The translations under genes and the position numbers were made by a program. Shown piece after piece: positions 22,178 through 29,417 of a stretch of DNA of 64,000 nucleotides. Source of the DNA: Aureispira sp. CCB-E (GTDB lineage Bacteria > Bacteroidota > Bacteroidia > Chitinophagales > Saprospiraceae); the NCBI RefSeq assembly GCF_031326345.1, contig NZ_CP133671.1, positions 3,658,001 to 3,722,000 on the forward strand. The letters are read 5' to 3'. The notes under the pieces were generated by a model. It ran no database searches. It saw only the letters and a program-made list of their open reading frames with translations, and had not been told where the DNA came from. Positions within the stretch are counted from its first letter, which is position 1, and each line of letters opens with the position of its first letter.

Positions 22178-23866
22178 TCATCGTTGGATGACTAACTTTT
22201 GAGTGTAAATATCTGCCTCATGTTCTAGACGAACCCAATATGTTCCATTCGGAATTTGACTTACGTCATAACTAATAAAGGGGCTATCTGCATTAAATGT
22301 CTGATGAACAGTGCGTCCCAACATATCTATAATGCTAACGTTATAAGAGCTGTTGAGTGGTCGGACAACTTTTAGATAGAATGTATTTTGACTAGGATTA
22401 GGCATTATTTTAAAGTAGTTGCTGGCAGGATCAATAGAGGTGATAGAAGATGCGACACTAACGGTAATATCTTGCTTGATATAACAACCACGTGTATCGG
22501 ATACCCTAACTTCATACACATCGGGTGCAAGTCCCGACACGCTATCTGTAGTTTGACCAGTTAAACTGCCTTGCCAATCATAAACATAGGGTCCTGTACC
22601 ATTGTTGGCTAAAAGTGTAATTGAGCCGTCGTTACTAGTGCCAGAGGAAGCATCTACAACAGTGTTGTTCAATGTCATTCCACCACTTAAATCCATGTAT
22701 AGTTCAAAAAATGCAAAAGCAGAAAGAATGGCTAATGGAGCACAAGCCGTATGATCTAAGGTAGGTCCTAGTTCTGTTGCAGAGACATTTAGAGCGCCCA
22801 AAGCAGTCATTGTGTCCAGTGCTACAACAGAATTGCCATAAAATACCTGTTCGTCTCCTTCACAATAATACATAGCCAAAGGAGCTTGAGGAACCCAACT
22901 ATAAACATCTTGTTCTCTTAATAATACCCTACCAAAATGGTTGGGGTCGTTTATATAATTACTAAAAAAAGTAGAATCCAGCATATGACTTGGGGTATCT
23001 GGTAATTGATTGTTAATCCAACCTGTAGAATGAACGCCATCAAAATAACTTGGTAGTAATGTATCGTAAGGAGAACGGAAAATCTCAGAAAGATTGTTGT
23101 AGACATTCCCATATGCCTCTTGCGCACCCAAAATAACATAAGGTAAATAAGCTGGAGTTGCATAAGGTTGAGGATTCGTAATGGTCGCAGCTTGTACACC
23201 TGATACATCGTAAGGTCCCGACATAGGGGCGCAAGCAGTTACTGTAAATTCGTTGGAAAGATTGGTTTCAATTTCTTTGAATGCTGCCATTGTAGAATGA
23301 CCACCTTGAGAATAGCCAAACAAAAAAACTTGGTCGTTTAAATTAAAACCTAAACTATCTTTCAGCTCACGAGCAGCTCGCATCATGTCAATAGTGGCAG
23401 AAGCCTCAGTTCTAGAATTTATATAGGGATGAAATCCAGGTTCGTCTCCTAAGCCTAAGTAATCGGGCATGGCACAAACGACGCCAGCAATAGCAGATGC
23501 CAGTACCCCAATTTGATACTCGGAGCCACCTTGATAAGAAGGAACACTTGTTTTGGTAGTTGTTGTTCCGTGTTGGTAACTGACCAAAGGAACAGGACAG
23601 GTAACGCCCGTTGGCACCACAAGTGCTCCTGTGGCAATTGTCGTTCCATTCCCTCTTGCATTAGATGTTGTATAACTTACTTTGTAATAATCTAATTCAA
23701 ATTCAGGGGCTACAACAGTAGGCGGAATCCCAAAGCCATTTAAAATCGCTTGGACATCTTGAATGTCGTAATGTTGTACGAGTTGATAGGAAACTAAATG
23801 TTGTTGTCCTAGGCTAGTTTGAAGCAGAGAAAAAGAGAAAACACAGAGTAAAATAAGTTTTTTCAT
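22178..23866 (-). CDS. T9SS-secreted alpha/beta hydrolase (lipase/esterase-like)
   Basis: A 562-aa secreted enzyme. A signal peptide (1-20, ending LGQ) is followed by an alpha/beta-hydrolase domain (about 30-400): VSYQHGTTTTK oxyanion-type loop, nucleophile elbow GYSQGG with S186, an acidic segment YYCEGDEQV, and LDHTACAP supplying the likely His. A SprB-like repeat (about 405-475) contains DWQGSLTGQTTDSVSGLAPD and ends CYIKQDITV. A type A T9SS C-terminal sorting domain (about 485-562) starts FKIMPNPSQNTFYL and ends NGTYWVRLEHEADIYTQKL. The product is thus exported by T9SS and probably held on the cell surface. The substrate is probably an ester lipid, by family only. Confidence 0.9.
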   Translation of the reverse strand: MKKLILLCVFSFSLLQTSLGQQHLVSYQLVQHYDIQDVQAILNGFGIPPTVVAPEFELDYYKVSYTTSNARGNGTTIATGALVVPTGVTCPVPLVSYQHGTTTTKTSVPSYQGGSEYQIGVLASAIAGVVCAMPDYLGLGDEPGFHPYINSRTEASATIDMMRAARELKDSLGFNLNDQVFLFGYSQGGHSTMAAFKEIETNLSNEFTVTACAPMSGPYDVSGVQAATITNPQPYATPAYLPYVILGAQEAYGNVYNNLSEIFRSPYDTLLPSYFDGVHSTGWINNQLPDTPSHMLDSTFFSNYINDPNHFGRVLLREQDVYSWVPQAPLAMYYCEGDEQVFYGNSVVALDTMTALGALNVSATELGPTLDHTACAPLAILSAFAFFELYMDLSGGMTLNNTVVDASSGTSNDGSITLLANNGTGPYVYDWQGSLTGQTTDSVSGLAPDVYEVRVSDTRGCYIKQDITVSVASSITSIDPASNYFKIMPNPSQNTFYLKVVRPLNSSYNVSIIDMLGRTVHQTFNADSPFISYDVSQIPNGTYWVRLEHEADIYTQKLVIQR

Positions 23867-25340: not shown

Positions 25341-26378
25341 TTAATGTTTTATGGAATGATGGGGATTGCTAAAAGAAGGATGAGTTAGAATATACTTATC
25401 TGTCAGTGATTCTAAAAATGCCACCAAATCCTTTTGTTCTTGAGTATTCAAATGAAGTGGACGAATAAGAGGACTTTTGTGTTTGTGTGGTTGTCCTCCT
25501 CTGTTGTAATGTTGGATGACCTCTTCTAAGGTTTGAAGGCTGCCATCGTGCATATATGGAGCACTCATGCTAATGTTTCTTAAGGAAGGCACCTTAAAAA
25601 GAGCCCGATCTTGTTCTTGATAAGTCAGCCGAATTCTACCAGAATCAGCATAGTGTTCGTATAGACCATTGTTTTGAAACGAAAAATTAGAAAAATGAGG
25701 TGGGGTATGACACGAAGAACAATCTGTTTTATGACTCATAAATAGTTGTAGCCCTCTTTGAGCACTAGAACTAAGCGCCTTTTTTTTACGATAGTAAGTA
25801 TACTTGTCGTAAGGAGAATGGGCAGCAACCAAACTGCGTTCAAAAGCAGCAATAGAACGGGTGACAACATAAGGGTCAGGAGGGCGATTATAAGCTGCTA
25901 GGCTCATGGTACTATAGAGGCTGTCTTTGGCGATTCGTTGGGCGGCCAATACTATATTAAAATCGAGCTCATGTGTTTCTTGAATAGGAACTAAGATTTG
26001 CATTTCTAAAGTAGGGACACCTCCTGCTCTTGTAAAATAGGGGGCATAGGCAACATTAACTAGAGAGGGCGCATTTTGAGTCCCGAGACGTTGTTCTACA
26101 CCCAAACTAAGGGGCACACTGTCGGCAAAAGCAAATTGCTGTTTGTGACAACTGGCACAAGATACGGTGCTGTCTTTAGATAGAATAGGGTCGTAGAAAA
26201 GCATTCGCCCTAACTGAACACGGAGTTCTGTTGGTAAGTTATCTTCAGGGTGTTGGATATTTGGGAAATTATGAGGTAAATTATCATAAAAACCCATGGA
26301 AGAACTAGCTGTATGGCATCCTATTGTGCCATAGCAAAAAATTAAAACCCACAAAGATAGAGTAACCACTTTTAGCAT
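25341..26378 (-). CDS. Di-haem cytochrome c peroxidase family protein (MauG/MbnH superfamily), copy A
   Basis: A 345-aa lipoprotein-like exported protein (signal peptide, Cys21 at GTIGC). Two haem c motifs: C74-ASCH78 in the N-terminal half and C220-SSCH224 in the C-terminal half, with the MHDGSLQTLEEVIQHYN segment at the C-terminal end. Length matches bacterial di-haem peroxidases. The second domain's substrate-side region reads YFTRAGGVPTLEMQ where copy B has FFWDGRAELL, so one conserved aromatic/Arg block is replaced. It is the last gene of the three-gene unit starting with the MbnP-like gene. MauG/MbnH members oxidise protein residues at a distance, and that role is inferred here. Confidence 0.9.
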   Translation of the reverse strand: MLKVVTLSLWVLIFCYGTIGCHTASSSMGFYDNLPHNFPNIQHPEDNLPTELRVQLGRMLFYDPILSKDSTVSCASCHKQQFAFADSVPLSLGVEQRLGTQNAPSLVNVAYAPYFTRAGGVPTLEMQILVPIQETHELDFNIVLAAQRIAKDSLYSTMSLAAYNRPPDPYVVTRSIAAFERSLVAAHSPYDKYTYYRKKKALSSSAQRGLQLFMSHKTDCSSCHTPPHFSNFSFQNNGLYEHYADSGRIRLTYQEQDRALFKVPSLRNISMSAPYMHDGSLQTLEEVIQHYNRGGQPHKHKSPLIRPLHLNTQEQKDLVAFLESLTDKYILTHPSFSNPHHSIKH

Positions 26379-26399
26379 AAGTTATATTTGATATGATTG

Positions 26400-26429
26400 T
26401 AGAGGCGTAGCCTTAAAACTACGCCTCTA
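26400..26429. other. Intergenic hairpin within the peroxidase operon
   Basis: Perfect 11-bp stem TAGAGGCGTAG (26400-26410) and CTACGCCTCTA (26419-26429), loop CCTTAAAA, between the two peroxidase genes. It has no T-run on the minus strand, so it is more likely an mRNA-processing or attenuating element than a simple terminator. Confidence 0.65.
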
Positions 26430-26440
26430 TTAGTAATCAA

Positions 26441-27532
26441 CTAAAAAGGAGAGCTATATTCCTCCTTGATTGCTAGCTTATCGTCTGTTAATGTTTTCAG
26501 AAAAGCAATTAAATCTTGAATGTCTTGGTTTGAGAGCATTAATCCTCCATTGTGATAAGGGTATAATAATGCTGGATCTATAGTAGGAGAGTTGATCAAA
26601 CCTGTATTATAATGTTGAACAACTTCCTCTAAGGTTTTGAAGCGACCATCGTGCATATAAGGAGCTGTCAATGCTATATTTCTCAACGAAGGAACCTTAA
26701 ATTTAGCTTTGTCAGAACTATTAAGAGTTGCCTTTTCTCTTCCATTATCTGTAAAAATAGAGTCCAAGCCATTATTCATATAATCATCATTCTCGAAGTT
26801 TTTTCCTGAGTGGCAATGCGCACAATCGGCACCAGATATAGCAGGAAAAGATGGATTGTATTCGTTGAAAAATAAATCTTTTCCTCTTTGTTCAGCGGTT
26901 GTTAGAGCGACTTCACCTCGCAAATGTCGGTCATATTTGCTATCTACGGACACAATAGAAAACATAAACTGTTCTAGTGCTAACGCTATGCGTTCTTCTG
27001 TAATAGTCTCATCGCCAAAAGCCAAAAAGAATTGATTGCGGTATTGTTGTTCCGCCTGTAGTTTAGCGACTACGCTGGGCATCGTTTCTTGCATTTCCAG
27101 CGCATCTTGTATTGGTAACAATGCCTGATGCCTAAGCAATTCGGCACGTCCATCCCAAAAAAATCCATTGGTATTCCATGCTAAATTAAAGACAGACATT
27201 GCTTGTCGATGCCCTCGAAGGTCATTAACACCTTTTGAGAAAGTAGCGGTATCAGAAAAACCATACTCTTGCAAATGGCAAGAAGAGCAGCTAATAGAAG
27301 CATCTAAAGACAGCTTTTTTTCGTGAAATAACATCCGCCCCAATTGCACACCATCGGTTGTAAGTGGATTGTCCATTGGCAGATTTGGTGGTGGCAAGTC
27401 TCCAGTTTCTAATTGATAAGCAATAGGTTTATAAACTAGTGGTTCTTCTTTGGTGTGGCACCCGTATCCCAACAATATAATTGAGAGTAAGAGGCAAACA
27501 GGAAGGAGTTTTGTGTTATTACTGTTATTCAT
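26441..27532 (-). CDS. Di-haem cytochrome c peroxidase family protein (MauG/MbnH superfamily), copy B
   Basis: A 363-aa lipoprotein: signal LLLSIILLGYGC with Cys25. Haem c sites at C82-SSCH86 and C237-AHCH241. The segment FFWDGRAELL with Trp126 is the electron-transfer aromatic region usual in bacterial cytochrome c peroxidases, and the final MHDGRFKTLEEVVQHYNTG block is conserved. The start overlaps the MbnP-like gene's end by 8 bases, so the two are translated from one transcript. Copy A follows after a hairpin. A role as the oxidising partner of the MbnP-like protein is suggested by the context and the MbnP/MbnH precedent, not shown. Confidence 0.92.
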   Translation of the reverse strand: MNNSNNTKLLPVCLLLSIILLGYGCHTKEEPLVYKPIAYQLETGDLPPPNLPMDNPLTTDGVQLGRMLFHEKKLSLDASISCSSCHLQEYGFSDTATFSKGVNDLRGHRQAMSVFNLAWNTNGFFWDGRAELLRHQALLPIQDALEMQETMPSVVAKLQAEQQYRNQFFLAFGDETITEERIALALEQFMFSIVSVDSKYDRHLRGEVALTTAEQRGKDLFFNEYNPSFPAISGADCAHCHSGKNFENDDYMNNGLDSIFTDNGREKATLNSSDKAKFKVPSLRNIALTAPYMHDGRFKTLEEVVQHYNTGLINSPTIDPALLYPYHNGGLMLSNQDIQDLIAFLKTLTDDKLAIKEEYSSPF

Positions 27533-28481
27533 GAGTCACGGATATTTTTTGTGAAGTAATAACTTGTCCTTCTTTTTTTAGGTTCAAAATATACCAACCA
27601 GCATCTAAAAATTGGATGTTCTTCTTGTCAGGAGAGGCAATAATATTGGAATATACTTTGCCCGTCATATCATAAATCTCAACACTAGTATCCAACGATT
27701 CATCGGCATCAATCGTTAATGTTTGCCCTACTCTTACGGGATTGGGATATATAGAAATCGTGCTAGAAGCCAACTTGACAACAGGCACAGACATAGAGCC
27801 ATCCGAAAATACTAGGGTGTTAAAATTGTTGAGAACAGTCCTAGCAGCACCTGTTTCTCCATGACTAACAACTCCCGAACTGACATCTATAGAGTGCAAT
27901 GCTTTGGCATAATCTGCATCAATAATTACTTCTAAATCATTATTATTGATATAACCATTGGTCACAATCGTTTTAACTTTGTAGTTGCTGTCGCCTAAGC
28001 CGTGCATTTGAAAAACATCAGACATAGAGGAACCTGAAACGCCCTCGAATGCAACGAAACGATAGCCAGCTGTCCACCCCCAATGCATAGAAGGTGATTG
28101 TGGCGCTAGAGGATGATTGGCAGGATAAGTCGTTGGGTCTAAATGATTTTCTGCATTACCTACCCCAATGCCAAAAGAAACACTATCTAAGTTGTTAATA
28201 TTAAAATTACCTAGTAATTGATTAGTAGAGGTATTGGCATTAACCAAAATAAAGGTATTGTTGACAGCTGTTTGAGTACCATCATGGTAAAGCGTAATAT
28301 TGCTAATGTAGTACTGTAAACGAGTTACTTGAAAATCACTACCAACATTATTGGGTGTTGTCTGGTTAAAAGCAAAATTGCTGCTTCCAAGGAGATGATT
28401 AATTTTGAAGTAGACGTCTTTTTGAGCATAGGATGTCTGTAATGCTAAGGTAGCACAGAGGAATAAAATTATATTTTTCAT
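27525..28481 (-). CDS. MbnP-like copper-associated protein with T9SS sorting domain
   Basis: A 318-aa exported protein. Signal peptide 1-20 (ending YAQ). The MbnP-like domain (about 22-225) shows VYFKINHLLGSSNF, FQVTRLQYYISNI and the diagnostic SMHWGWTAGYRFVAFEG with W134 and W136. In methanobactin systems, MbnH converts a Trp of MbnP to kynurenine, which then takes part in Cu(I) binding. The C-terminus (about 240-318) is a T9SS type A sorting domain (ISIYPNPVRVGQTL, then SLDTSVEIYDMTGKVY and GWYILNLKKEGQVITSQKI), so this version should be displayed on the outer membrane. It is the first gene of a three-gene unit. The copper role is inferred from the family. Confidence 0.85.
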   Translation of the reverse strand: MKNIILFLCATLALQTSYAQKDVYFKINHLLGSSNFAFNQTTPNNVGSDFQVTRLQYYISNITLYHDGTQTAVNNTFILVNANTSTNQLLGNFNINNLDSVSFGIGVGNAENHLDPTTYPANHPLAPQSPSMHWGWTAGYRFVAFEGVSGSSMSDVFQMHGLGDSNYKVKTIVTNGYINNNDLEVIIDADYAKALHSIDVSSGVVSHGETGAARTVLNNFNTLVFSDGSMSVPVVKLASSTISIYPNPVRVGQTLTIDADESLDTSVEIYDMTGKVYSNIIASPDKKNIQFLDAGWYILNLKKEGQVITSQKISVTHE

Positions 28482-28516
28482 TATTATGTATATTATTGTG
28501 ATTAACTATTTTAATA

Positions 28517-28719
28517 TAGTAGTTCGTTGATTAGCTCCCTGCGGTCGTGAGATCACTATCGCTTAGTTGTTTACTTTTTACCAAAAAGATAAAAAAGCAC
28601 ATTTATATTAGTTTGATAATCAAATTTTTAACACAAAACGCAATAAATTTACAACTTATTGATTATCAAACTAATAAAGTTTAGCTGCGCTGCTACTGCG
28701 TGGTTTCAACGAACTATTG
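28517..28719. repeat. Dispersed intergenic repeat, copy 5
   Basis: Runs from AGTAGTTCGTTGATTAGC at 28517 to CAACGAACTATTG at 28707-28719. It contains the AAAGCACATTTATATTAG block, the inner pair AGTTTGATAATCAAAT and TTGATTATCAAACTAAT, and GCTGCGCTGCTACTGCGTGG. It lies in reverse orientation relative to copy 3. It fills about half of the gap upstream of the MbnP-like operon. Confidence 0.8.
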
Positions 28720-28910
28720 TTAATAGACTTTAAAAAGTTATTGTTATGCTTGTTCATTGATTGATTTGATGTGTCATTTAGTACACTAAAGACCTACTTT
28801 ATACCATTGGTTATGGCATAAAAAATCAACAAGCAGGGCTAAATAAGCTTATAACACAATAGGTCTGGTGTCTCTATTGTAGCTATAAAGTAGCTATAAA
28901 TAGTTGCTCT

Positions 28911-29417
28911 CTAACATAAAAATGATTGATGCAAAATGTATAAAGGAACATCTGGCGGAGGGAAAAAATAAGCAATAGGATGCTGAGCAAATGAGCTAAA
29001 CCCTAGTATAGTATGTTGCTTTGGAAATATAGGTGCATAAAAAGGGAGTTGATGAAGGTATTGGGCGGTTGTTTCTAAATCTAATTCTGAAGAAACAGCG
29101 TTTAAGTCAGATTTTGCCAATGACTGTTCATCTAAACAGCAAGGCTTCTTCTTAAAAGAGTTTTGTTGCTGCAAGAGAGCTTGATCAAAGCAACTTAGGT
29201 ATAAGTTTTTGGAGTTTGAGCAACAAGTTTTAGCTAGTACCTTTGGGAATGCATTTTGTTCTTTTGCTTTTTGTTTTTTACAACAAGGTTGTATGGTATT
29301 AACAAAAAAAGCAATGGCTTTTAATTCATCTTGACAATAATGACTATAGGTTGCAATCCCTATGGTAGAGAATAGAACCGTCCAAATATTGAGAATATGA
29401 ATTAACTTTAAGAACAT
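28911..29417 (-). CDS. Cys-rich HYC_CC_PP family protein
   Basis: A 168-aa exported or membrane-anchored protein. An N-terminal hydrophobic helix (1-22) precedes the H26-Y-C28 motif. Cys pairs follow at 45-46, 65-66 and 93-94, and a C-terminal PPPDVPLYILHQSF segment completes the HYC...CC...PP pattern. This family often neighbours metal-related TonB receptors in Bacteroidota, although none is adjacent here. The repeated CC pairs suggest metal or redox binding. It is on the same strand as the MbnP/peroxidase operon, separated from it by a repeat-filled gap of 429 bases. Confidence 0.75.
   Translation of the reverse strand: MFLKLIHILNIWTVLFSTIGIATYSHYCQDELKAIAFFVNTIQPCCKKQKAKEQNAFPKVLAKTCCSNSKNLYLSCFDQALLQQQNSFKKKPCCLDEQSLAKSDLNAVSSELDLETTAQYLHQLPFYAPIFPKQHTILGFSSFAQHPIAYFFPPPDVPLYILHQSFLC

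Follow-up and report, generated by a model that had tools for sequence, protein, structure and literature searches.

A conserved trio in Bacteroidota of a T9SS-tailed MbnP-like protein and two di-haem enzyme types, a candidate surface copper-binding module

MbnP/MbnH pairs are best known from copper handling in methanotrophs. What, then, is an MbnP-like protein doing in Aureispira sp. CCB-E, where it ends in a sorting tail for the type IX secretion system (T9SS) and its gene is followed by two genes for di-haem enzymes? The locus lies in a 64,000-nt stretch of contig NZ_CP133671.1 (the window, to whose positions all coordinates refer) and comprises three minus-strand open reading frames (ORFs): that of the MbnP-like protein (27525–28481, 318 aa), px1 (26441–27532, 363 aa) and px2 (25341–26378, 345 aa). 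The first two share 8 bases (27525–27532), 62 bases separate the px1 stop from the px2 start, and a gene on the opposite strand follows. We confirm this layout, which a sequence-only reading had described as an MbnP-like gene overlapping one peroxidase gene, with a second downstream, and had interpreted as a possible surface copper-binding module. The trio is a real module, conserved across many Bacteroidota and no local oddity. We lean towards viewing it as a module that binds copper at the cell surface and owes its maturation to MauG/MbnH-like enzymes, the enzyme type of px2 (R-type, defined below) being the constant partner and that of px1 (W-type) an accessory; kynurenine, copper binding and surface location are what we infer for the MbnP-like protein.

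Profile and fold matches underlie the layout of that protein, which has a signal peptide (residues ∼1–19), an MbnP domain (21–201) and a T9SS type A tail (244–314; 27540–27752, minus strand). The domain matches PF20243 (MbnP) at E 2.7e-29 and 102.8 bits (Pfam cut-off 27), and the tail matches both PF18962 (Por_Secre_tail; E 1.9e-9, 38.1 bits, cut-off 27) and TIGR04183 (T9SS type A tail; 49.1 bits, cut-off 23). Searches of the PDB with the protein alone or with a profile of its own clade returned no MbnP, their significant matches being T9SS tails; a broader alignment used as the query retrieved MbnP 7l6g (E 2e-4), and fold comparison recovered the MbnP fold for the domain and T9SS tails for the tail region. 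In the 7l6g alignment, the Met, WxW and His of the MbnP copper site, which we take to be the copper ligands, are all present. The predicted oxidized and copper-binding motif M132-H133-W134-G135-W136 (codons 28074–28088, minus strand), the MHWGW of the sequence-only reading, aligns with GMAWNW of 7l6g, and the predicted copper ligand H160 (codon 28002–28004, minus strand) aligns with VHVG. The predicted kynurenine site is W134; MbnP itself is said to contain kynurenine. By sequence criteria, namely a tail scoring over its cut-offs in a genome that has a T9SS (SprA at 2416 bits; at least 150 T9SS tails), the protein is a predicted T9SS type A substrate, and the sorting tail of the sequence-only reading is thereby upheld.

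How far does the arrangement extend? In an unseeded survey, the MbnP domain alone was used to search 198 genomes, most of which belong to the same family and order. Above 200 bits stood 51 genes in 47 genomes, and the next score was 155 bits, leaving a gap; these 51 clade genes make up 49 loci, the window included, every one of which was read. The five residues of the MHWGW motif are identical in all 51 members, as is H207, and H160 is present in 50 and H123 in 48. A further 31 WxW MbnPs outside the clade all share H160, yet have Tyr, Phe, Leu or Asn in the H133 column and Gly, Asp or Ala in the H123 column, so that H133 and H123 mark the T9SS-tailed clade; at the H207 position, 16 of them have Met and 9 have His. 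A T9SS tail is by itself unremarkable, since one occurs in 9 of 20 control regions (14–15 kb each, from 20 of the same genomes); its match in 50 of the 51 clade members rules out a chance fusion. Recurrence in dozens of genomes likewise puts the trio beyond chance, and the survey of tailed MbnPs and their neighbours that the sequence-only reading had called for finds both enzymes and metal-gene neighbours recurring. Sampling the phylum evenly gave close matches in 12 of 296 genomes, probably an underestimate because the first look, with 7 candidates scored per genome, was crowded by tail candidates. An earlier, seeded scan had yielded 66 loci, 57 with an MbnP domain (L036–L092; L numbers are our locus handles) and 9 with a tail only, which are kept out of the 49-locus counts because MHWGWTAG was among the seeds; it includes Aureispira sp. 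CCB-QB1 (L036), whose protein is 100% identical to that of the window. Another of its loci (L082), with a T9SS-tailed MbnP and an R-type enzyme, lies on a contig labelled Bradyrhizobiaceae that is probably a misassigned metagenome contig. At five loci (L067, L069, L070, L151 and L168) two T9SS-tailed MbnP genes stand around or before the enzymes, so a single enzyme set may serve two substrates.

Paralogues provide a natural control for the link between the Trp pair and the enzymes. Six matches to the MbnP domain occur in the genome, the last of them under the Pfam cut-off. Three adjoin a di-haem gene, namely the copy in the window, L001, which has WxW, and L005, which has W..W with the first Trp retained; L003, L004 and L006 have neither a Trp at the W134 column nor an adjoining di-haem gene. 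Elsewhere, L118 has the first Trp only and an adjoining enzyme, a pattern that fits the first Trp as the target. In a second MbnP paralogue family of Aureispira (L104 and L184–L187, the latter four from the same genus as the window) the Trp pair is gone and no peroxidase gene lies nearby. Members L104 and L184–L186 of that family have a T9SS tail, and a ∼624-aa gene (leucine-rich-repeat in L104) stands alongside L104, L184, L185 and L187.

Are px1 and px2 ordinary peroxidases, or enzymes that could modify such a substrate? Both score far over the CCP_MauG cut-off, with two CxxCH motifs each. The best PDB match of each is 6e1c (‘Di-heme enzyme’), presumably MbnH of Methylosinus trichosporium OB3b, and the strong matches also include several cytochrome c peroxidases of solved structure. 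Both have a MauG-type Tyr at the 6-coordinate haem (Y308 in px1) and the distal Gln, Pro and Glu, for which we assume the MauG numbering. The family and structure matches would suit a third reading, in which the enzymes are ordinary peroxidases, the surface protein no longer binds copper and the trio serves in H2O2 defence. We consider this very unlikely: the Met ligand that classical cytochrome c peroxidases have at the high-potential haem (given in a passage of PMC6405878) is replaced by Tyr in both enzymes, 50–51 of 51 clade members retain the Met, the His and the two Trp of the MbnP site, and metal genes stand nearby in relatives.

The two enzymes differ at the inter-haem Trp, which px1 keeps (W126, codon 27155–27157) and px2 replaces by Arg117 (codon 26028–26030). 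A FastTree phylogeny of the locus enzymes of at least 290 aa separates a W-type clade of 33 members (local support 0.999) from an R-type clade of 44 (0.977), and 23 columns, each >75% conserved within a type, distinguish the two. These findings rule out a simple recent duplication of one peroxidase. Enzymes that the regular-expression typing had left undecided were typed by the aligned inter-haem column, with fragments below 120 aa excluded (a 78-aa fragment at L171 is thus uncounted). This column in the full-length enzymes of the 49 loci is R in 40, W in 33, and T, G, K, S and H in one each. Across all enzymes collected, all 94 R-types keep both CxxCH motifs, the Tyr and the distal Glu, 93 keep the Pro and 91 the Gln. 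Of 66 W-types, a few of which lie outside the clade, every one has Trp and Glu, and Tyr, Gln and Pro are each present in 65. A later-found R-clade enzyme of genome G082 (L230) has Met at the Trp column and Phe at the Tyr column. The sequence-only reading's claim of two peroxidases rather than one thus stands as two MauG-type enzymes, with the correction that they belong to two clades, are not near-duplicates, and that the downstream gene rather than the overlapping one recurs most.

Which of them would act on the MbnP-like protein? An R-type is present at 45 of the 49 loci and a W-type at 33; both occur together at 32, a W-type alone at 1 and neither at 3 (two of these at contig ends). Thirteen loci have a non-Trp enzyme but no typed W-type (3 with an untyped fragment, 3 within 2.4 kb of a contig end). 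Downstream of the 51 MbnP genes the order is R–W in 28, R only in 14, W–R in 3, W only in 2 and none in 4; the window is one of the three W–R cases. Among the seven genomes with an R-only locus, a W-clade gene was seen elsewhere only in G074 (26 enzymes read of 30 fetched from 44 matches). Because the R-type is commoner and R-only genomes mostly show no W-clade gene, we take the R-type as the constant partner and the W-type as an accessory. One could instead cast px1 as the working MbnH-like enzyme, coupled by the 8-base overlap, with px2 otherwise employed, e.g. in electron transfer or H2O2 removal. That px1 adjoins the MbnP-like gene in the window, that px2 has no Trp beyond residue 30, and that a passage of PMC6405878 describes the inter-haem Trp of MauG as necessary for bis-Fe(IV) stabilization and tryptophan tryptophylquinone formation would all suit such an assignment. 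We nevertheless judge it unlikely, given the greater constancy of the R-type, the six R-only genomes without a W-clade gene seen and the near-complete retention of the Tyr and the distal Glu, Pro and Gln by R-types; moreover, BthA of Burkholderia thailandensis, with Ser at the inter-haem place, still makes bis-Fe(IV) according to the same passage, so that loss of the Trp need not inactivate an R-type. A single-sequence AlphaFold model of px2 had a mean pLDDT of 33.5 and was not used.

Where might the oxidation happen? By a simple rule, all 33 W-types and 34 of 38 R-types are lipoprotein-like, px1 and px2 included, counting enzymes of at least 325 aa (7 of 45 R-types are shorter); the oxidation could therefore occur in the periplasm or outside. 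An acidic motif resembling the lipoprotein export signal (LES) follows the lipid Cys in 27 of the 33 W-types, 21 of the 34 lipoprotein-like R-types and 8 of 61 uncurated background lipoprotein-like ORFs. We compared the px1 (CHTKEEP) and px2 (CHTASSS) sequences with LES forms such as C-X-K-(D/E)2-X; according to PMC5080379, LES is known from Capnocytophaga, Bacteroides and Flavobacterium and usually has its Lys at +3. The px1 sequence hints that this enzyme may face outwards.

Such signals invite a two-stage maturation in two compartments, with the R-type periplasmic and the W-type a surface lipoprotein that completes, repairs or re-oxidizes the site or handles H2O2 and copper; each enzyme would have a separate oxidation step, perhaps one per Trp of the pair. 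We rate this as a low but appreciable possibility. The two clades do adjoin at 32 loci, the acidic motif is commoner in both types than in the background ORFs, px1 reads CHTKEEP where px2 reads CHTASSS, and in PMC3912023 the di-haem peroxidase SACCP is itself on the cell surface with MopE. Set against this, many R-types have the motif too, the px1 Lys at +4 lies one position beyond that of the Capnocytophaga LES (PMC5080379), LES is not established for Saprospiraceae, and the 13 R-only loci exist. Put in full, the proposal is a kynurenine–copper site that an Arg-bearing MbnH-like enzyme starts in the periplasm and an LES-like-tagged Trp partner finishes or renews outside, T9SS moving the protein in between. 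Doubtful as we hold it, it would imply a MauG-type routine of long-range oxidation with a positive charge in place of the supposedly necessary bridging Trp, and a covalent protein modification coupled to T9SS export.

To return to the copper-binding module with px2 as constant partner, the neighbours of the 49 loci, counted within 5 kb of the MbnP gene, point to metal. A gene for an HMA, multicopper-oxidase, P-type-ATPase or RND-pump protein stands at 18 loci and in none of the 20 control regions (Fisher p 8e-4), P-type ATPases and RND pumps not all being copper-specific and many locus stretches ending at contig ends; by family, with overlaps, the 18 have HMA (11), multicopper oxidase (4), P-type ATPase (4) and RND (4). 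HYC_CC_PP genes occur at 16 loci as compared to 1 control (p 0.015). Representatives confirmed by Pfam are a double HMA protein at L156, an RND pump at L108, a P-type ATPase that begins with a His-rich stretch at L157 and, at L107, a T9SS-tailed multicopper oxidase accompanied by a second oxidase piece. The seeded set adds a multicopper oxidase whose tail falls just under the cut-off (L083; 26.3 versus 27 bits), a TonB receptor with a Fur-type regulator (L054), and a TonB receptor with HMA plus MauE (L067). Since efflux and detoxification genes are more often the neighbours of relatives than receptors are, protection against copper seems somewhat likelier than uptake.

In the module as we picture it, the MbnP-like protein would reach the periplasm via Sec, judging from its signal peptide. 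A di-haem MauG/MbnH-like enzyme with H2O2 would oxidize W134 towards kynurenine, a step that by homology would be needed for holding copper; the oxidizing partner would be R-type px2, with W-type px1 added at most loci. One copper, probably Cu(I), would be bound by M132 and H160 next to the modified W134, and the invariant H133 and H207 and the near-invariant H123 may contribute. By way of the type A tail, T9SS would then export the protein through the outer membrane and anchor it outside, where it would buffer or sequester copper.

Several points weigh against this picture. Both enzymes fall below the TIGR04039 (MbnH) cut-off of 362.85 bits (px2 283.8, px1 228.2), as do all 10 matches in the genome, and the MbnP-like protein scores 41 bits against a cut-off of 140 for the TIGR04052 (MbnP_like_WxW) equivalog. 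Three MbnPs (L116, L120 and L121) keep WxW without a nearby enzyme. The TonB-receptor profile matched at 1 of 49 loci versus 2 of 20 controls, so that uptake, though hardly probed, is not favoured. At 31 of the 49 loci no HMA, oxidase, ATPase or RND gene lies within 5 kb, the only adjacent candidate metal gene of the window locus is HYC_CC_PP, and the choice of neighbour families came after a look at some of the loci, from which their profiles were also seeded. Finally, for a peroxidase knock-out of Methylomicrobium alcaliphilum, the authors suggest enzyme-free formation of kynurenine (PMC3912023). The profile test suggested by the sequence-only reading accordingly came out divided, with PF20243 passed and the MbnH cut-off missed by both enzymes; its surface copper-binding module keeps the support of fold, motif, tail, MauG-type Tyr and relatives' metal-handling neighbours, but not that of the strict MbnH and MbnP equivalogs.

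The HYC_CC_PP gene upstream of the MbnP-like gene (28911–29417, minus strand; NF047658, 46.7 bits, cut-off 28) encodes a Cys-rich protein, possibly of metal-related function. It is separated from the MbnP-like gene by 429 bases, compared to 154 in L037, which may be explained by a dispersed repeat of ∼230 bp (28493–28725) that contains an 18-nt perfect inverted repeat and matches the genome at least 46 times, 40 of 565 candidates having been scored. On the same strand as the trio, positions 22178–23866 encode another T9SS-tailed protein, with secretory-lipase and SprB-repeat matches. In relatives, a block beside the trio (L154, L156, L170, L114 and L158) comprises HYC_CC_PP, a double-HMA secreted protein and a 258–263-aa protein, perhaps a beta-barrel, that belongs to no Pfam family; four of these five loci also have an NHL-repeat protein. 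Multicopper-oxidase pieces, one of them T9SS-tailed, lie directly upstream of the T9SS-tailed MbnP in L107 (6096–8882) and L181, possibly a surface copper-oxidase fed by MbnP.

How does the trio compare with known systems? It shares with the MbnP/MbnH pair of M. trichosporium OB3b (7l6g) the MbnP fold, the aligned M-x-W-x-W and His, and the adjacent di-haem gene, and differs from it by the T9SS tail, by MHWGW with its clade-specific His and by two enzyme clades, one lacking the Trp. The Aureispira genome also has no match to the MbnB-family maturase (PF05114), which rules out a methanobactin system, although precursor peptides themselves were not searched for. Other Bacteroidota pairs (e.g. 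L001 and L007–L035) share the MbnP domain, WxW and usually an adjacent di-haem gene; no T9SS tail was found in these, and they have mostly M[YF]WxW and a Trp-bearing enzyme of WDGG/WDGA type in place of MHWGW. In one open literature library we found no account of a T9SS-tailed MbnP, nothing on MbnP with Bacteroidota and copper, and nothing on HYC_CC_PP. From what is given of BthA in PMC6405878, it resembles px2 as a MauG-type di-haem enzyme with a Tyr ligand and no inter-haem Trp, but has Ser where px2 has Arg, and in the trio px2 has another partner protein and, as its neighbour, a second enzyme that bears the Trp. The need for the inter-haem Trp in long-range oxidation is left open by MauG and BthA in that text; with both enzyme types beside one T9SS-tailed substrate protein at 32 surveyed loci, Trp-less MbnH chemistry becomes testable, as does the timing of Trp conversion to kynurenine, before or after export. 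Under strict curated names the trio belongs to neither TIGR04052 nor TIGR04039, and it would instead work like the CorA/CorB (Methylomicrobium album) and MopE/SACCP (Methylococcus capsulatus) systems, for which PMC3912023 describes a surface copper protein with kynurenine near the copper and a co-transcribed di-haem peroxidase. In those systems copper is held by two His, as compared to the predicted Met/His site here, and there is one peroxidase and no T9SS; copper represses both CorA and MopE, according to PMC3912023. Surface kynurenine–copper proteins with such peroxidases are thus already known in methanotrophs; what the trio adds, along with the suggestion of a surface copper-handling route in Bacteroidota, is another protein family, the T9SS route and a second enzyme clade.

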